From IMG/VR virus record IMGVR_UViG_3300025594_000042, positions 1-29,054 of that record: DNA of 29,054 nt; one strand, given 5' to 3'. The notes beneath the pieces were generated by a model. It had not been told where the DNA came from. It ran no database searches and was given only the letters and a program-made list of their open reading frames with translations. The DNA is from a virus. A program made the position numbers and the translations under genes. This document shows, in pieces, positions 1 through 7,430 of this stretch (positions are counted from its first letter, which is position 1; every line of letters begins with the position of its first letter).

Positions 1-1945
1 CTCCCACTTCAATGTCATTTGCATTTTCTGTTAGTATTATTCCATCGCCTGCCGTCAGGCTGCGGAATTCAAAATCATTAACTGTACGTTGTTTAAATAC
101 GTCACTACCTGCACCTAGGCTGCTGGCAGTAAGACTTTCACCGACGGTGATAACGTCTGCTGCGACACCCATAGTAATCGCACCACTTACATTGAATGTG
201 CGGAATTCTAATTTGCCAACATTATTTTGCTTGTAAACTTCATATGGTCCACCGCCGACATTTAATCCGTCATTAACGCTGCCTGAACCTGTTGCAAATG
301 TTTGCCACACTCCAAGTTGATATCCTTCAAATGCGCCTGTCGTAGTATTATAACGCATGGCACCATTTGTTGTGCTTAATCTCTGCGCGGTTGTTCCTTT
401 TGTAAGTGTTACGCTATCAGTACCTGGTAATACAGGATTAGTCGTGATACTAAGTGTTGGATTATTACCTGTGCCACTACCATTTGCTACTGTTATCTGC
501 CCTGAAGTCCCAGATATGCTGCGGTATAATGCGGTATCACCGCTTCGCACCAAAAATCCATTACCTGTGCTAGCATTAACATCAGTTAGGAATGATCCGA
601 ATGTTGAGCCGCCACCCACAACTTCATAATCATCAATAATCGCCCCTGTGTTTATATTATTCTTGAGATAGGTTACGCCATTATCACTGCGGTAAACAAG
701 CTGACCTTCAGATGCACCACTATTGATAAGTCCAGTTTCATCACCAACAAAGAGGGTTGCACCGTCAAGAGTGTAATTGTTAGTAACTGTGGTGTTTACT
801 GTCCCACCGCCTGCGGCTTCACCTTCAGCAATCGCAGCGTTAACTGGATTGGTTGGTAGGCCACCGTTATCATAGCCAGGCTGGTCGATTGTCTCTGGTA
901 CTGTGCCGACACTAACTTGCTCTGCTTGTTGGGTAACAGTTTGTGTATACCCAATAATTTCACCGCAGTAGTTATAGACTGGATTTTGCTCTGCAATTGT
1001 TGGTTCTGGATCTGTAATACGACGTAAAACACGCAACAGATCGTCATCGCAAATCAACTCAAGTATGTTATTATACGTGTTGCCGTTACTGTCGACTACT
1101 GGATATGATCCACAATTGTCATATATGTTTTTAAGCCTCACTGCCGCGCTGACGCAGCCTTGCATGCCTTCGTCTTGTGAATTGAAGCCACAAGCGACAC
1201 CTTCATGTGTTGGGCGCGTATCTTCTGACAGGTCGCTTCCGCCTTGATCATAGTTTGTTGCTACATTGGTTTCACGAGCAATAATGTCATCAATTGCCGT
1301 TTCGATTAATGTGATATCGTTAATGAGTGTTTGTTCAATTGCGCCTAAGTCATCAATATTGTCCCAGACTTTTTTGAGAACGCCACTACTAAAAATACTA
1401 CCATTAAAACTGCCACCTATTAGGCAGCCGCCAATTTCACCTGGCAAAACTTGTCCAATTGAATCAACAATATCACGACCTGCGCCAAGGAAACTGTCCA
1501 TTACATTTTCTAAGACATTAGGAATACGAATAGGATTAATTGGTGCAGAACAGAAGTTAATCATGTTTGCGATGTTTGTTACTTCAGCAATAACGTTATT
1601 GATACGTCCTAGGACTTCATCAAGTTTGAGATGATCCATAAACTTATCAAAGGCCTGGTCAAGTGAGGCCAGTGCTGCATATAGTGCATCAGATACTGTA
1701 CCCAATACTGTACCCAATAGCTCTTTGATGTTAAGGCTAACACAAATTTGTATATTAGGTAGCAGTAGCCCGCGCCCAGCTAATAGGCTACAGATGATTT
1801 CTTTGAGATTAACATCAATCTCAGCACTCACCATAAATCCAGCAATATTTGCTACACTAGTTGATAGCTGGGCAGACGCACCAATATTATCAGTAAGATA
1901 GTCGTTGGCACTTGCTAGGCCGTTTGGAAAGTCTGTAAATGCCAT
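1..1945 (-). CDS. Tail-fibre-like virion structural protein (C-terminus beyond left edge)
   Basis: The frame starts at an ATG that overlaps the stop of the PAAR gene (TAATG) and stays open for 648 codons to the left edge, so the C-terminus is missing. The first ~350 residues are mixed, with many cysteines (for example GGCLIGG, NYCGEI) and several predicted helices. From about residue 380 it becomes Gly/Thr/Asn-rich and looks like beta-structured fibre shaft. The last ~85 visible residues hold two copies of a ~40-residue repeat: each has a KQ..V...EFR core followed by an Asp-Val/Ile-Ile-x-Val-Gly-like end, the second including AGDGIILTEN. Phage fibres and baseplate-attached appendages often have such repeats. 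Translational coupling to the spike gene suggests a baseplate or fibre role. The fibre-like composition is seen in the sequence; the exact tail position is inferred. Confidence 0.7.
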   Translation of the reverse strand, partial: MAFTDFPNGLASANDYLTDNIGASAQLSTSVANIAGFMVSAEIDVNLKEIICSLLAGRGLLLPNIQICVSLNIKELLGTVLGTVSDALYAALASLDQAFDKFMDHLKLDEVLGRINNVIAEVTNIANMINFCSAPINPIRIPNVLENVMDSFLGAGRDIVDSIGQVLPGEIGGCLIGGSFNGSIFSSGVLKKVWDNIDDLGAIEQTLINDITLIETAIDDIIARETNVATNYDQGGSDLSEDTRPTHEGVACGFNSQDEGMQGCVSAAVRLKNIYDNCGSYPVVDSNGNTYNNILELICDDDLLRVLRRITDPEPTIAEQNPVYNYCGEIIGYTQTVTQQAEQVSVGTVPETIDQPGYDNGGLPTNPVNAAIAEGEAAGGGTVNTTVTNNYTLDGATLFVGDETGLINSGASEGQLVYRSDNGVTYLKNNINTGAIIDDYEVVGGGSTFGSFLTDVNASTGNGFLVRSGDTALYRSISGTSGQITVANGSGTGNNPTLSITTNPVLPGTDSVTLTKGTTAQRLSTTNGAMRYNTTTGAFEGYQLGVWQTFATGSGSVNDGLNVGGGPYEVYKQNNVGKLEFRTFNVSGAITMGVAADVITVGESLTASSLGAGSDVFKQRTVNDFEFRSLTAGDGIILTENANDIEVG

Positions 1946-2868
1946 TATGAGTTCCTATAATAATTGTTGATACTATCAACCGTAATTGGACCGCGTGGAT
2001 CGCGCCAGCCTGGGTTTTGGTTCCATGCTGCACTTCCTACCGGATAAACAACAGAAGATCCACTGCGACTAGCATACGCTGGTGCTGCCTGCATCATACC
2101 AAGTGAATTGTCAGGATCATACTTCCAAAAGTCAAGATGCTTACCGTATGTATTCAATTGCTGGGCTGGAGTCTGCTGTGAAATCGCGGTGGTAGTCGTA
2201 CCAATTGTTTTTGCACTGTCAGGCATAATTTGGAATAGTCCTGTTGCGCCGCTTGGGTTACGGGCTTTTGGATCAAAGTTACTTTCGCCATTTATGATCT
2301 TATAAAGTTCAGTTCTATCAAACCCAGGGAAACGTTCCTCTATCAACGCCAACTCGCGCTGCCATTCTGGATCATTTTCAAGTGCAGTAATGCGGGCCTG
2401 ATCTTGCTCGCTAAATTCTGTTGGATCATACGAGTCTTCTCCGCCTGGATCTTGAAAATCGTCGCGTATATCTTCTTGCGGAGTTGCGTTAGGATCTGGG
2501 TAAAGTTCTGATCTAGTTGGATCAGGACCTTCATCTACAATACCTGGTCCGCCGCCACCACCTGCCGCTCCGCCGCAAGCATAAACATCACCGCTTCCGC
2601 TAGTAGCCGATGGACTGCAATGAGGTGGACCCTTCGGTCGACAAAGACTGTCAGGCGCGGACCCGGAACCTTTCAAGACCACTTTCTTGTTATTGATCCA
2701 AACTGTGCCATCGTTAACACTTGCAGAGAGGGCGCCGCCTCCGTGTGTGTTTCCGTCGCCTTGTACGCTAGCCAGTTTATTGTTTACCCAAACAGTACCC
2801 TGGCCCATTACGGTTGTTGTTGCGCCGCATGATCTGGAATCTGAATGTCGATGGACAGGTGTATTCAC
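1945..2868 (-). CDS. PAAR-repeat spike tip fused to SLT lytic transglycosylase
   Basis: 307 aa, starting at GTG with AGGAG six bases upstream; an ATG inside that spacer meets a stop at once, so GTG is the start. Residues ~1-85 are PAAR-like: His6, His8, Cys14, two GTVW-NN repeats, Gly-rich turns and further His/Cys, as expected of a metal-bound cone capping a tail spike. Residues ~95-160 are a Gly/Pro/Asp-rich linker. Residues ~165-307 are a soluble-lytic-transglycosylase-like domain with the putative catalytic Glu195 in NGESNFDP and the downstream GATGLFQIMP motif. T4 divides these jobs between gp5 (spike plus lysozyme) and gp5.4 (PAAR tip). Here one protein probably both pierces the outer membrane and cuts peptidoglycan during injection. 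A T4-type late promoter lies 18 nt upstream. The domain calls are strong by motif; the virion location is inferred. Confidence 0.82.
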   Translation of the reverse strand: MNTPVHRHSDSRSCGATTTVMGQGTVWVNNKLASVQGDGNTHGGGALSASVNDGTVWINNKKVVLKGSGSAPDSLCRPKGPPHCSPSATSGSGDVYACGGAAGGGGGPGIVDEGPDPTRSELYPDPNATPQEDIRDDFQDPGGEDSYDPTEFSEQDQARITALENDPEWQRELALIEERFPGFDRTELYKIINGESNFDPKARNPSGATGLFQIMPDSAKTIGTTTTAISQQTPAQQLNTYGKHLDFWKYDPDNSLGMMQAAPAYASRSGSSVVYPVGSAAWNQNPGWRDPRGPITVDSINNYYRNS

Positions 2869-2886: not shown

Positions 2887-2894
2887 TATTTATG
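2887..2894 (-). promoter_or_regulatory. T4-type late promoter (CATAAATA)
   Basis: On the minus strand this reads CATAAATA, one mismatch from the T4 late consensus TATAAATA. It overlaps the stop codon of the 110-aa gene and lies 18 nt before the GTG of the PAAR gene, leaving room for the AGGAG ribosome site. It probably gives tail genes separate late transcription from the nucleotide-metabolism genes upstream. Confidence 0.6.
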
Positions 2895-3222
2895 ACGTGA
2901 TTAGACCCTGATTTCCGCCTGGATTAAGGTCTAGCCCACTTACCTGTTGGGTGTAGGCAGCTTTGAACTCTTTGCTAGTTGATAATGTAGTGACCACTGT
3001 CTGCTTATTGAAAGGGACCTCACCAGGACCTTCGCGCAAATAGCTGCTTGACATGATATATGGTGCTAATGCCATTTGTCCTTCAGATGTTGGTACTGGT
3101 ACTACAGGTTTACGTAGAACGATTTCGCCCATATTTTCTTCAACATAGTAGCCGATTACTTCTTCGCCTGATACTAGCTTGATTGTGATTACATCATTTG
3201 CGTTGTGTTTAGTCTTTAACAT
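2890..3222 (-). CDS. Conserved small protein, possible Sm-like beta-barrel
   Basis: 110 aa. The ATG follows directly on the glutaredoxin stop (TAAATG). Residues ~10-60 alternate hydrophobic and polar residues (VITIKLVSGEEVIGYYVEE, then IVLRKPVVPVP), which fits a small five-strand Sm/Lsm-like barrel. The C-terminal half is Ser/Thr-rich and ends with SGLDLNPGG. Similar small proteins with a VITIKL.SGEE start occur in marine T4-like phages near baseplate genes, from memory of that group. No enzymatic motif is visible. It could act in virion assembly or as an RNA-binding protein; neither is shown by the sequence. Confidence 0.6.
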   Translation of the reverse strand: MLKTKHNANDVITIKLVSGEEVIGYYVEENMGEIVLRKPVVPVPTSEGQMALAPYIMSSSYLREGPGEVPFNKQTVVTTLSTSKEFKAAYTQQVSGLDLNPGGNQGLITS

Positions 3223-3480
3223 TTAAATTCCTGGGTTTCCGCCATACATATTATGGTCTTCATAGTATTTTTCGAGATCGTGAAAATTACCAACAAATTC
3301 ACCATGTAGGAAAATTTGTGGTACTGTCTTAGCTGCTGGTACAACTTCTAACAGTTGGTCTTTTGTCCAGCCATCACCGATCTTGCGCTCTTCGTATGCT
3401 ATACCTGATTGTTCAAGTAGCCTTTTTGCCATGTCGCAATACGGGCAGCCGTTTTTGCTCCATATAATTGTGTCTGTCAT
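3223..3480 (-). CDS. grx: Glutaredoxin
   Basis: 85 aa, the usual length for a phage glutaredoxin. The dithiol active site CPYC is at residues 12-15 after an N-terminal beta strand. TVPQIFLHGEFVG supplies the cis-Pro loop and glutathione-binding region. It would be reduced by glutathione or thioredoxin reductase and could deliver electrons to the reductase encoded two genes upstream, as T4 NrdC does for the class I enzyme. The ATG lies three bases after the macro-domain stop. This is a clear family match; pairing with this class II RNR is inferred from the shared operon. Confidence 0.92.
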   Translation of the reverse strand: MTDTIIWSKNGCPYCDMAKRLLEQSGIAYEERKIGDGWTKDQLLEVVPAAKTVPQIFLHGEFVGNFHDLEKYYEDHNMYGGNPGI

Positions 3481-3483
3481 CTA

Positions 3484-3918
3484 TCATTCCAATTCATATA
3501 TAAAAACTTCATAGTCTTCAAGTATATTTTGAACAAGTATTTCTACTTGCTCCCAGTCTAGACCGCCAAGGCCACATCCAATTTTTGGCATTGCAATGGT
3601 GGTTAACAGGTTATCCCTCATATACTCAGCTATACTTACCAAGCAATATGCGACGGCTGTAAGGTCAGCATACTGCTTTCCATCATAGCCTTTATCTTGT
3701 TGCGTGTGTGCATTAACCCAAATTCTGCCCGCGTATTCCACGAATTGACAAGTGCCCAATATATGTTCTGATAGGCTGAGGTATTGCTCACGCACATAGG
3801 GATGGTTGCGTTTGATTGCACCAGCCACTCCGCTTCCGAAATGGCCAGTGCAATTTACTCCGTGTGCTATGACTTGTTCTGTTGCTTCAGTCACATCACC
3901 TTTTTTGTAGTGAATCAT
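3484..3918 (-). CDS. Macro-domain (ADP-ribose-binding) protein
   Basis: 144 aa, essentially a single macro domain. The N-terminal GDVTEA strand is followed by VNCTGHFGSGVAGAI (residues ~21-35): Asn22 is in the position that contacts the distal ribose, and the Gly-rich loop fits the diphosphate. A second conserved stretch, MPKIGCGLGGLDW, is near residues 109-121. Proteins of this family bind ADP-ribose or hydrolyse ADP-ribose-1''-phosphate or protein/nucleic-acid ADP-ribose esters. The start overlaps the RNR stop (TAATG), so it is translationally coupled. A role in NAD/ADP-ribose metabolism or in reversing host ADP-ribosylation is possible; the sequence alone does not choose. Confidence 0.85.
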   Translation of the reverse strand: MIHYKKGDVTEATEQVIAHGVNCTGHFGSGVAGAIKRNHPYVREQYLSLSEHILGTCQFVEYAGRIWVNAHTQQDKGYDGKQYADLTAVAYCLVSIAEYMRDNLLTTIAMPKIGCGLGGLDWEQVEILVQNILEDYEVFIYELE

Positions 3919-6140
3919 TAGATTTCACACCCGCCATTTGATCCAGAACACGCGATCGCTCCCATAGTATCTATATCAGTATACATTTTCTTTGATAGTC
4001 CTGTCAAGAAATCAATTGGCTGCATGTTCTGTTGAATCTTTGTCCACTTGTGTAGTAAGTACACATCCTTAAGACAATACTCTGCTGTCTTTTCATCACC
4101 ATCAAAGTAATTTTCAGCAAAGTTCTTGAAACGGCGAATCCAATCAGCACCCAGGTCTTTTTGCTCGCCTGCGCGTTGGCTGCCTTCACTTTGAGCCATA
4201 AAGGTTGCAGTCCACAAATCACCAAAGCCCTTTGTGCTTTCAACAATTAACCCACTTGCGAACATTGCTGCACGTCCATACTTGTCAACAATCTGACTTT
4301 CTGTTAGAACTTCAGTAAATGGCGCCTGGTTGAAATCTTTGTCACCACTAGCTGCTAGGAAGCTAATACCTGCGAAGCTGTCGCGGTTAGTGAACAAGTA
4401 CTCTTCAACTTCGTCCCACTGATTTGGCGAAACTTGCACTGTGTTAGAAACGTTGTGGCGGACTGTTGGATCAACGCAAAGACTTTCATCTGTGCCATGC
4501 TCAACCCAAGACCTCTGAACGAGGCGAACTTTTTCAAGCAACTTAATGCCATATAGTTCACGCTTAAAGAGTGAATCACGTGGTGCAATAACAGGAAAAC
4601 TAATCTGATAGTCAGTGCCGTTTGTTGACCATACGCTCTCTTCAACCATGTAAGGATTGCTAGCTGCAAATAGTTGTGCAACTTCCGTATCTTTGTTCAT
4701 CTGTACGTGACGGATGTAACGAGGAGAATGGTCGCCGTGGATGCCCGAACTTGTACCTAGTAGAACGCTTGCGTTACCACTTGGCTTTACGCATGTTGTA
4801 CGTGCTGCTGGGTTAATGCCAATTAGTTTTGCAACTTGACGGTTTACCTTCTTAACAAGTTCAGCACCTTCTTTAAGTGTTGCTTCATCAAACAACACGT
4901 CTGGTGCGTTCATCCAACCTGTAACACTGACGCCAATTAGAGCTTCGCGGTCAAAGATCTTCTTGCTTGTCTTGTCTAGGAAGTTAAAGTCAGTGTAACC
5001 AGCTTGTAGCGTACCTAGGATGGCGCCTACGCGACATGCCTTAAGGAATTCTTCCTTAGTTGTGCACTTGCTGCCGTTGATTTCGCTGAGGTTACAGCCT
5101 TGCCAACCTGACGTTTTCTTCTTGCCTTCAATTAGAACAGGATACTTGCCAATTTCAACACACGGGTTGTAAGTATGCTCTGTGCTTTCTGAAAATACAA
5201 AGCCAGGCTCACCAAATTGGCGAATGCTCTTCATAATTTCTGCAAACTGCTCACGACTAGCATCTTTACGCACAATCACTGCTGAGTTATTTGAGCGTCC
5301 ACGCTGTGGATTTTCTTCGTACCAATTACCTGTTTTTGCTTCAATCATTTCCTTATCAAAAGGGCTGAATAGACAAATAGTAGCTGAACGGCGAACACCG
5401 CCAGCCAGAACAGCATCGGCGGCGTGCATACAAATATCATATACTTCAATTGGCTTGAGTGTGTCACGTCCTGCTAGAACTGCTCCTTGTAGTAGGTGCT
5501 CAATTTTATCTAGTGATTTACGAAGTGGCTCTGGTCCAGGCGCTTTAAATCCGCCTGAAATCATTGCGCCTTTTGGGCGTACCTTGTTGAGGTCAAAATA
5601 TACGCGTCGTCCTTCGTACTCTGGAGTTTTACCACCATTGACGAAAAAACTAGACATAAGAACGTCTAGTGCTGTCGCCCAGCCTTCAATGCTATCTTCT
5701 ACTTCGTGGATCTTGGCTTGGCCCTTGCGCTGCGCCACTTTTGGCAATTTTGCAACGTGATGTTTCTGAACTGAGAACCCGGCGCCTGCACCACACAGGA
5801 GAACATAAAATAGTTCACCAAAGAAGGCTGGACGGTCTGCGTATGAACTTGTACAGTTATACATACGCATTTGGTGCTTGAGAATTTGATCTCCACCAAA
5901 TTGTAGAGCTCGTTGTGCACCTAGTACATACTTGAGTTTGTAAAGTGCTTCTGCTTCATCAACGAGTAATGACAGATCTTCTGTCATTTTTTCACCGTAA
6001 AATTTACGGTGCATGTTCATCACACGGGACACACTTTCTTCCCATGTCTCATACCTACCAAGTTCGTCGCTCCAGCGGCTATAGCCTTCGTAAAATTTGG
6101 CCTCCCCCATAAGGGCACGGGTATCGATATCTTTCTTCAT
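3918..6140 (-). CDS. nrdJ: Adenosylcobalamin-dependent (class II) ribonucleoside-triphosphate reductase
   Basis: 740 aa, almost the length of the monomeric Lactobacillus RTPR (739 aa). It reduces ribonucleoside triphosphates to dNTPs with a radical from coenzyme B12. Visible catalytic features are NCTS (Cys96, first of the reducing pair), NPCVEI (Asn325, thiyl Cys327, Glu329), GCNLSE (Cys349, second of the pair) and the C-terminal CSGSNGGC tail (Cys731/Cys738), which re-reduces the active site. AGGVRRSATICLFS and CVKPSGNASVLLG are further family blocks. The ATG has AGGAG upstream in the 14-nt gap after the 170-aa gene. T4 and most cyanophages carry the two-subunit class I enzyme instead. Expression needs no partner subunit but needs cobalamin. 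Glutaredoxin downstream is a likely electron donor. Confidence 0.95.
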   Translation of the reverse strand: MKKDIDTRALMGEAKFYEGYSRWSDELGRYETWEESVSRVMNMHRKFYGEKMTEDLSLLVDEAEALYKLKYVLGAQRALQFGGDQILKHQMRMYNCTSSYADRPAFFGELFYVLLCGAGAGFSVQKHHVAKLPKVAQRKGQAKIHEVEDSIEGWATALDVLMSSFFVNGGKTPEYEGRRVYFDLNKVRPKGAMISGGFKAPGPEPLRKSLDKIEHLLQGAVLAGRDTLKPIEVYDICMHAADAVLAGGVRRSATICLFSPFDKEMIEAKTGNWYEENPQRGRSNNSAVIVRKDASREQFAEIMKSIRQFGEPGFVFSESTEHTYNPCVEIGKYPVLIEGKKKTSGWQGCNLSEINGSKCTTKEEFLKACRVGAILGTLQAGYTDFNFLDKTSKKIFDREALIGVSVTGWMNAPDVLFDEATLKEGAELVKKVNRQVAKLIGINPAARTTCVKPSGNASVLLGTSSGIHGDHSPRYIRHVQMNKDTEVAQLFAASNPYMVEESVWSTNGTDYQISFPVIAPRDSLFKRELYGIKLLEKVRLVQRSWVEHGTDESLCVDPTVRHNVSNTVQVSPNQWDEVEEYLFTNRDSFAGISFLAASGDKDFNQAPFTEVLTESQIVDKYGRAAMFASGLIVESTKGFGDLWTATFMAQSEGSQRAGEQKDLGADWIRRFKNFAENYFDGDEKTAEYCLKDVYLLHKWTKIQQNMQPIDFLTGLSKKMYTDIDTMGAIACSGSNGGCEI

Positions 6141-6154
6141 TGCTAGTTCTCCTA

Positions 6155-6667
6155 TTATTGATTATGCAATAGGTACGATCGAATCGGAAACGATTCTCGT
6201 ACTTCTAGATATTCAACACTGTGGAGATCCACAACTTGGGTATGTAATGTATTCAGTGCGTAACGACCACCATAGGTGGCAATCATATATTCGTCGTTAT
6301 TGACATGATCACGAACGCGGGCTAATGTGGCGTTTACATCTTTATCAAGATAATGTATGTTATACGCCATTGCTAGGCCTCTGCTATACTTACAGCATTC
6401 ACCTTGATCGAGTATTTCCCACACGGTTGGCCAAGATTCAGGATTGAAGGGGTCCATAGCTACGCTTACAAGTGGGGCTTGTTCCCACCACGTGCTGATA
6501 TTTTGTAAGCAAACCAAAAGTATGCTATTATCGGACTCAGTTCCATTTGACTTGAATAGGTCGTAATGGGACTGAAGCTCAATCCTAAATTCTCTCCAAC
6601 TTGCAAGACGTTCATCGGGTGAACGCAACCACAAATTTCGTAACTGACTAATGTTCAGTTGTTCCAA
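6155..6667 (-). CDS. Conserved hypothetical protein upstream of RNR
   Basis: 170 aa beginning at TTG; no ATG or GTG lies in frame between the upstream stop and residue 71, so TTG is the best available start, though no Shine-Dalgarno is evident. The protein is mixed alpha/beta, rich in Trp and aromatic residues (STWWEQAPLV, ESWPTVWEIL). It has two close cysteines (ECCKY) and no transmembrane segment. No family was recognised. It lies 14 nt upstream of nrdJ and is probably co-transcribed, so a link to nucleotide metabolism is possible but unproven. The 85 nt upstream hold no convincing promoter apart from a GATAAATA formed by the end of the exonuclease gene. Confidence 0.65.
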   Translation of the reverse strand: MEQLNISQLRNLWLRSPDERLASWREFRIELQSHYDLFKSNGTESDNSILLVCLQNISTWWEQAPLVSVAMDPFNPESWPTVWEILDQGECCKYSRGLAMAYNIHYLDKDVNATLARVRDHVNNDEYMIATYGGRYALNTLHTQVVDLHSVEYLEVRESFPIRSYLLHNQ

Positions 6668-6752: not shown

Positions 6753-7430
6753 TTATTTATCGAGTTCATAAAATTCACCCACTCGATGGGCCCATTTTTT
6801 ACTATACTCGTCAAACTCAGACTTGCTAAGTTCAAATAATTGAAACTGGCAATCTCTGCTGCACATAAAGATAGCAACAGTTTCGATTTCAGTCTCAAAT
6901 AATGCATTGTGTGCGTTGCCATAGGCTGCACCTTGCATGAAGTAATCTTCGATCCATTCACGCTTTTTAGGTCGGTTTGTTTGCTTAAAGTCCATTATGG
7001 CTTGCTTGCCTTTCCAAACACCTACTAGGTCTGTTGTACCTGCATAGAGTCCTGGATAGTAGAGCCCAACTTCTGTACCCCAAGTTTCATCCAAATCATC
7101 TTTAATATTTTCAATCACAGTGTCTGCCATTTTGGCTGCTACACGATGTATCATGTTGTCTTTGGCGTCAAAATTGTCGTTAATCAACCAATTTTCCAAA
7201 TAGCCATGCATCAATGTGCCTACGTTGGCAGCTTCGTTTGTGATTTGTTGTGCTTGTTCTGCCCCAACTCTATTGCGCCATTCCTGAAGGGCCTTTTTAG
7301 CTTCTTCAGGTTTAGTTGCACTCAAAATTGTTGTTACAGATGGAAGAAAGCCACTCTCAGTATCGTAGAGTCGCTTCCCTTCAACGCGCTTGCGTTTAAT
7401 ATCTTTGTAAGGAAACTTTTCAATTATCAT
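6753..7430 (-). CDS. RecB-family PD-(D/E)xK exonuclease
   Basis: 225 aa. The order GTLMHGYLE (His75), GTEVGLYY (Glu120), TTDLVGVW (Asp134), IMDFKQTNR (Asp147-x-Lys149), then DYFMQGAAYG (Gln166) is the full PD-(D/E)xK signature of the RecB/MGME1-like clade, with the catalytic Asp-Asp-x-Lys core intact. T4-like marine phages often carry such a nuclease for host DNA breakdown or recombination. The ATG is six bases from a perfect TATAAT -10 hexamer and has no Shine-Dalgarno, so a leaderless mRNA is predicted. An independent early promoter here separates it from the late genes upstream. Confidence 0.85.
   Translation of the reverse strand: MIIEKFPYKDIKRKRVEGKRLYDTESGFLPSVTTILSATKPEEAKKALQEWRNRVGAEQAQQITNEAANVGTLMHGYLENWLINDNFDAKDNMIHRVAAKMADTVIENIKDDLDETWGTEVGLYYPGLYAGTTDLVGVWKGKQAIMDFKQTNRPKKREWIEDYFMQGAAYGNAHNALFETEIETVAIFMCSRDCQFQLFELSKSEFDEYSKKWAHRVGEFYELDK

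Follow-up and report, generated by a model that had tools for sequence, protein, structure and literature searches.

Class II ribonucleotide reductases (RNRs) occur in 29% of RNR-bearing phages, very few of them myoviruses (Dwivedi et al., PMC3653736), and class II enzymes of the RTPR type make up about 22% in known viruses, mostly siphophages (PMC10547690); T4-like phages with a class II RNR are thus uncommon, though not new. Two described systems bear on the redoxin partner of such an enzyme: the cobaviruses of Rhodobacteraceae carry a cobalamin-dependent RNR and a glutaredoxin in one phage (PMC6775973), and the Thermus virus NrdJm has been demonstrated to receive electrons from host thioredoxin, the virus encoding no redoxin (PMC6459318). 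Macrodomain proteins were found in 41% of myoviruses in one survey (PMC9503650), and the family of the T4 macrodomain Tk.4 counts well over a thousand phage records, often labelled only 'phosphatase' or hypothetical. Here we describe a locus in the IMG/VR virus record IMGVR_UViG_3300025594_000042, in which a class II RNR, a macrodomain protein and a glutaredoxin (Grx) are encoded side by side. The window that we analysed is the whole record of 29,054 nucleotides (nt), itself a genome fragment. With a probability of about 0.7, we read the locus as a cluster for deoxynucleoside triphosphate (dNTP) supply in a T4-superfamily phage, composed of an RTPR, its Grx, and a co-expressed but separate macrodomain that would act as an ADP-ribose hydrolase.

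All window coordinates given in the following are on the minus strand. The RNR gene (3918..6140, 740 residues) shares one base of its stop codon with the start codon of the macrodomain gene (TAATG; 3484..3918, 144 residues), whose stop is separated by 3 nt from the start of the Grx gene (3223..3480, 85 residues). Open reading frames (ORFs), family matches and conservation in other virus contigs confirm the three genes named in a preliminary description of this DNA. Chance ORFs are ruled out by the family matches, by conservation and by the ratio of non-synonymous to synonymous substitution rates (dN/dS), which was 0.04-0.09 for the RNR and 0.05-0.14 for the macrodomain in comparisons with unsaturated dS, dS being high throughout. 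The macrodomain gene is under purifying selection.

By family and predicted fold, the RNR is a monomeric class II enzyme of the RTPR (NrdJm), adenosylcobalamin type. It matches phrog_367 (E 3.6e-98) and, above their cut-offs, the Pfam entries RNR_Alpha and RNR-II_ins_dom; an RTPR-type insertion domain is present (PF21995, 27.6 bits, cut-off 27). The only sequence match in the PDB at E 0.01 is RTPR of L. leichmannii (1l1l, E 2.7e-31), which is also the best fold match of the AlphaFold2 (AF2) model (predicted local distance difference test score (pLDDT) 88; TM 0.68/0.70; 19% identity). All 23 aligned rows share C96, N325, P326, C327, E329 and C349. We propose Cys327 (codon 5160..5162), within the motif N325-P-C-x-E329, as the thiyl-radical cysteine, and Cys96 (5853..5855) and Cys349 (5094..5096) as the redox pair of the active site. 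At the C-terminus, Cys731 and Cys738 (CX6C; 3927..3950) form a second pair in a tail that a redoxin should reduce; this tail is disordered in the AF2 model, and the tails of relatives are shorter. We take C119, C408 and C419 to be the counterparts of Cys96, Cys327 and Cys349 in the L. leichmannii enzyme, and its C-terminal pair to be, presumably, C731 and C736. An RNR of class I or class III is ruled out by the family and fold matches together with the absence of NrdB described next. The enzyme should use cobalamin and, judging from its class, should depend on that of the host.

The window being a fragment, the proposal that class II stands in for the NrdAB usual in T4-like phages could be pursued beyond this DNA only in relatives. 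NrdB (PF00268) was found in none of 13 related virus records (24-168 kb) and in none of three complete phage genomes (RHph_I1_18, KLEP7 and phiM12), with T4 scoring as positive control; the counter-evidence named in the preliminary description, class I genes elsewhere, thus did not turn up as regards NrdB, either in the related records or in RHph_I1_18, the closest isolate. When 10 records were searched with a profile of the RNR, 9 of them, among them phiM12, gave a class II relative, and T4 gave no match. PF02867 is insensitive to this RNR clade, giving no match in 11 of the 13 records although an RNR is present in all, and the case against class I therefore relies on NrdB. A Gp23-type capsid gene (PF07068) in 7 of the 13 relative records supports a T4-superfamily lineage; among the genes of the window itself, no capsid gene was identified. 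Within the limits of fragmentary records, the replacement of NrdAB by a class II enzyme in this lineage is therefore supported.

The question of its donor, which NrdJ phylogeny was expected to settle, had a different outcome. In a quick tree of 44 rows, from which all intein-bearing and most fragmentary RNRs were left out, the window enzyme falls into a starred set of seven virus contigs, and the sets enclosing its group mix virus contigs, RHph_I1_18 and contigs of metagenome-assembled genomes (MAGs) of varied label. The nearest cellular-looking RNRs belong to Kiritimatiellales (46-49%). Many of the MAG contigs in the tree are probably phage; of the two whose neighbours were scanned, L098 (L-numbers denote contigs compared with the window) has a deoxynucleotide monophosphate kinase gene nearby, and L116 (Pontiella) encodes an RNR with an ATP cone. 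With the clade nesting among virus and MAG contigs, no donor can be named.

For gene order, we compared 54 virus loci found by their RNR, 13 of which form a close clade (81-100% identity), while many of the other 41 are short. L002 is identical to the window over the RNR, as are L004 to L019 and L006 to L043, so the independent lineages are fewer than the contigs. The Grx gene directly follows the macrodomain gene (or the RNR gene, in L011) in all 13 close contigs, and it also lies downstream of more distant RNRs, 25 nt away in L093, some 1.5 kb away in RHph_I1_18 and 3-4 kb away in L052, L091, L095 and L123. The protein is a dithiol glutaredoxin (PF00462, E 4e-14; phrog_22, E 2.7e-15) with CPYC at residues 12-15, both cysteines, C12 and C15, being invariant in 11 of 11 aligned sequences. 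We infer that it is likely to be the electron donor of the RNR. In the mechanism that we propose, the RTPR would use host adenosylcobalamin to generate a thiyl radical on Cys327 and reduce ribonucleoside triphosphates; the Cys96-Cys349 disulfide of each turnover would be transferred to Cys731/Cys738, and this pair would in turn be reduced by the CPYC motif of the phage Grx. The macrodomain, a small putative ADP-ribose hydrolase of the Tk.4 family, would have no direct part in ribonucleotide reduction. Its translation would be coupled to the gene in front, whichever this is, and during infection the protein would most likely release ADP-ribose, either from a macromolecule or from a small metabolite, as counter-defence or as clean-up.

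The assignment of the macrodomain to the Tk.4 family (phrog_335, E 9.3e-38; PF01661, 39 bits, cut-off 22) is matched by its AF2 model (pLDDT 93), which has an ALC1/TARG1/DarG-like fold. Among its fold matches are BT1257 (Z 22.7, root-mean-square deviation (rmsd) 1.8 over 142 aligned residues), TaqDarG (Z 21.0, rmsd 1.9, 140 residues), TARG1 (Z 20.6, rmsd 1.8, 137 residues), SCO6735 (Z 19.7, rmsd 1.9, 134 residues) and Poa1p (Z 17.8, rmsd 2.3, 143 residues); these come from a second look at the fold (VIA), in which absence of a family from the listed matches does not count as its exclusion. A profile alignment places H19, N22 (codon 3853..3855) and Q73 (codon 3700..3702) on H24, N27 and Q85 of SCO6735, whose numbering, counted by hand, is consistent at all three residues. 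At the position where TARG1 and DarG have their catalytic lysine, SCO6735 has the catalytic Gln85; the exchange Q85A abolished activity on both DNA- and protein-linked ADP-ribose, and N27S nearly abolished activity on DNA (PMC9411070). None of 21 phage macrodomain rows deviates at H19, N22 or Q73, and neither does any of 11 rows that include the T4 Tk.4, phiM12, RHph_I1_18 and Atu_ph07 homologues; T72 is invariant as well. The loss of binding residues in homologues, which the preliminary description had named as counter-evidence, was thus not encountered. The protein differs from a DarG antitoxin: Gln73 occupies the place of the catalytic Lys80, and its 144 residues form a single domain, with no C-terminal DarT-binding domain. 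With these Asn and Gln residues, the protein is probably catalytically active, as an ADP-ribose hydrolase of the lysine-less, SCO6735 type, an assignment of enzyme class that is well supported. The same invariant Asn and Thr-Gln signature as in SCO6735, without the DarG lysine, is seen in T4 tk.4 (L136 15923-16390) and in phrog_335.

The preliminary description had further taken the RNR and macrodomain genes to be coupled, which holds for the TAATG overlap of the window but does not extend to its relatives as a property of the pair. The macrodomain gene is present in 12 of the 13 close contigs and in L073, which was found by macrodomain search, and of 14 loci, the window among them, 3 have it directly adjoining the RNR gene (window, L002, and L007 with a TAA-ATG contact between the stop and start codons). 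In the other loci, genes intervene: an N4/N6 DNA methylase in L004/L019, L009 and L036 (with a PF01555 match in L004, L009 and L036, the three scanned), small ORFs in L003, L006/L043, L008, L010 and L073, and an opposite-strand ORF without Pfam match in L005. In 12 of 13 loci examined, whatever gene comes before, its stop is abutted or overlapped (0-23 nt) by the macrodomain start; L005 is the exception. The coupling thus shifts with the upstream neighbour from locus to locus and belongs to the macrodomain start, not to a fixed gene pair. In L011, the macrodomain is gone and Grx is kept; what appear to be the last macrodomain codons remain before Grx as KDYEIFVYKI, to be compared with the C-terminus EDYEVFIYELE of the window protein. 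A class II RNR lies within the flank covered in 2 of 11 distant macrodomain loci (L079-L089), and macrodomain neighbours vary, with NAD-salvage genes in RHph_I1_18 and phiM12, and tk and vs in T4. Judging from gene order, the macrodomain looks like separate cargo, a lineage-specific add-on and not a component of the RNR.

Two further features of these intergenic regions may be recorded. The small proteins inserted between RNR and macrodomain in L003, L006, L008 and L073 have a common C-terminal motif resembling ATLFKLTFGG; the one scanned, that of L003, had no Pfam match. At the site of the macrodomain deletion in L011 (9108-9233), the remnant between RNR and Grx stands beside a 12-bp hairpin, as noticed by eye.

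Several observations weigh against reading the locus as an RTPR-Grx cluster with a separate hydrolase. The RNR scores 198 bits (E 1.9e-58) with TIGR02505, the RTPR model, under its equivalog cut-off of 340 bits, and 19.7 with Ribonuc_red_lgC (PF02867), below the cut-off of 23.9; with both scores below curated cut-offs, the enzyme must be regarded as homologous but divergent, although such a cut-off is no biochemical trait in itself. The DNA-contacting Lys34 of SCO6735 aligns with Ser29 of the macrodomain, so that the substrate may differ from that of SCO6735. That a macrodomain gene was found near the RNR in none of the 41 contigs outside the close clade speaks for a separate cargo, but is a weak absence given that many are short. 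The separateness of the macrodomain may also be questioned, as 12 of 13 close contigs retain the order RNR, macrodomain, Grx in spite of the inserts, which could reflect a functional tie, and as in two unrelated phage contigs, L079 and L080, a class II RNR likewise has a macrodomain on its upstream side, at 2-3.3 kb.

Two explanations of what the macrodomain acts on are narrower forms of the macrodomain part of our reading, and not alternatives to its RNR part. We entertain, with reservations, that the protein handles a small metabolite, such as ADP-ribose-1''-phosphate, O-acyl-ADP-ribose or a cyclic ADP-ribose signal, in NAD salvage or in the clearance of RNA-repair by-products. The ADP-ribose-1''-phosphatase Poa1p is among its fold matches, with His23 aligning to His19, although the Z scores of DarG and TARG1 are higher. 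The macrodomain homologue of RHph_I1_18 overlaps a NAMPT gene, in phiM12 about 1.5 kb separates it from a putative nicotinate phosphoribosyltransferase gene, and 2 of 13 relative records contain NAPRTase-family genes; however, the other 11, which are fragments, gave no NAD-salvage gene, and none was identified beside the macrodomain of the window. According to the survey cited above, the substrates preferred by phage macrodomains would be low-molecular-weight ADP-ribose derivatives (PMC9503650).

It is also possible, if somewhat doubtful, that the macrodomain counters ADP-ribosylation-based defence, such as thymidine ADP-ribosylation by DarT, and is placed with dNTP synthesis for expression at the onset of replication. 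DarG, TARG1 and SCO6735, its nearest characterised counterparts in fold and residues, remove ADP-ribose from thymidine in DNA, and it is with the Asn27 and the indispensable Gln85 of SCO6735 that Asn22 and Gln73 match (PMC9411070); Gln at this position is, however, also found in BT1257, and Lys34 of SCO6735 is not retained. The best NCBIfam match is again DarG, albeit weak (64 bits, cut-off 250). Anti-DarT factors do exist in phages, but no enzymatic activity is predicted for AdfB, and AdfA is considered a direct inhibitor, so neither provides a macrodomain precedent (PMC11481870). In addition, same-family macrodomains beside NAD-salvage genes in rhizobial phages point to a metabolite instead. 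A more far-reaching version, in which Tk.4-family phage macrodomains are Gln-dependent, SCO6735-type thymidine-ADP-ribose hydrolases that undo DarT-type defence on nascent phage DNA, and one of them was captured here into an RNR-glutaredoxin cluster, coupling DNA repair with dNTP supply, appears unlikely to us. Most improbable is direct regulation of the RNR by the macrodomain, in line with the suggestion of the preliminary description that it acts at the same step, for example by linking dNTP synthesis to a sensed level of ADP-ribose or NAD: the contacts in the window and L007 and the retained order would agree with this idea, but most relatives have inserts to which the coupling shifts, L011 has lost the macrodomain, and the class II RNRs outside the clade show none nearby.

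Several RNRs of related phages carry insertions, and phage RNR inteins are already on record (PMC3653736); the RNR of the window has no intein. Inteins or intein-like inserts are located at active-site cysteines, before C96 in L009, L010 and L011, at C327 in L050 and L103, and at C349 in L044, L045 and L047; L050 and L129 have further inserts at the PSG loop. In the in-frame inserts L009 6280-7179, L050 6898-8076, L103 4982-5641 and L045 7033-8022, the next residue is the active-site cysteine (C96, C327 or C349). The Pfam intein-splicing domain was above cut-off in the C327 insert of L050 and in L103, below it in L009, and without match in L045 (four scanned). In L036 (142 kb; 3314-5385), the RNR frame changes and about 31 residues are lost right after the C96 intein site of its sister phages, which could be the scar of an imprecise intein loss, or an assembly error. 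In Pseudaeromonas phage KLEP7 (L065, about 1140-1390), the RNR is split at the NP/C site of the thiyl cysteine by an insert of about 200 nt and annotated as two genes; the insert looks like a small intron by eye, but an Rfam search at E 0.1 returned no match.

Around the cluster, the RNR gene is preceded by an ORF of 170 residues (6155..6667), for which no family match was obtained at E 0.001, and by a gene for a phrog_298 exonuclease (6753..7430; E 5.9e-51). The next gene after Grx belongs to the phrog_527 family (2890..3222) and holds this place in 13 of 13 close loci; a lytic transglycosylase gene (1945..2868), identified by ORF and family scans, closes the gene order considered here. An Rfam scan of the window returned nothing, including no cobalamin riboswitch upstream, and a tRNA scan of the window found none. 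Promoter and terminator scans stayed at shuffle level (13 against 11.9 expected, and 5 against 5.0 expected), and for this reason no operon boundaries are assigned.

Each part of the cluster is of a known kind, and the combination of a phage RTPR with a phage glutaredoxin is already on record, though uncommon in myoviruses. A literature search surfaced no paper on a phage cluster of macrodomain, RNR and glutaredoxin, while one may exist under other wording or in subscription journals. What the locus would add is a further T4-superfamily lineage in which the iron-dependent NrdAB has been exchanged for a one-gene, oxygen-independent enzyme of the B12 type with its own redoxin, tying phage DNA synthesis to host cobalamin. 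It also draws attention to the widespread, uncharacterised Tk.4 macrodomain family, which carries the Asn/Gln signature of a hydrolase that removes ADP-ribose from DNA and proteins, making its substrate directly testable with an established assay.

Set against known systems, the RNR resembles L. leichmannii RTPR (1l1l) in its NPCxE motif, paired active-site cysteines, C-terminal cysteine pair and insertion domain, but is phage-encoded, has a CX6C tail, and is distant at 19% identity and a score below the TIGR02505 cut-off. Its counterpart in Rhizobium phage RHph_I1_18 (QIG70648.1) is 68% identical over the full length and likewise belongs to a phage with Grx about 1.5 kb downstream and no NrdB in its complete genome; there, however, a homing endonuclease gene follows the RNR, and the macrodomain gene is about 77 kb away, overlapping the NAMPT gene. 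T4 Tk.4 (NP_049723.1) matches the macrodomain profile (E 2e-25) and is identical at H19, N22, T72 and Q73, yet it is only 31% identical overall, and its gene is located near tk and beside vs, not at an RNR. SCO6735 of Streptomyces coelicolor (PDB 5e3b) and BT1257 (2fg1) have the same ALC1-like fold, the conserved Asn, and Gln in place of the TARG1/DarG lysine, but are cellular proteins, and SCO6735 has Lys34 where the macrodomain of the window has Ser29. The cobaviruses, finally, combine a cobalamin-dependent RNR with a glutaredoxin as the present phage does, but represent a separate phage group, with no macrodomain seen in the accessible part of their description (PMC6775973).

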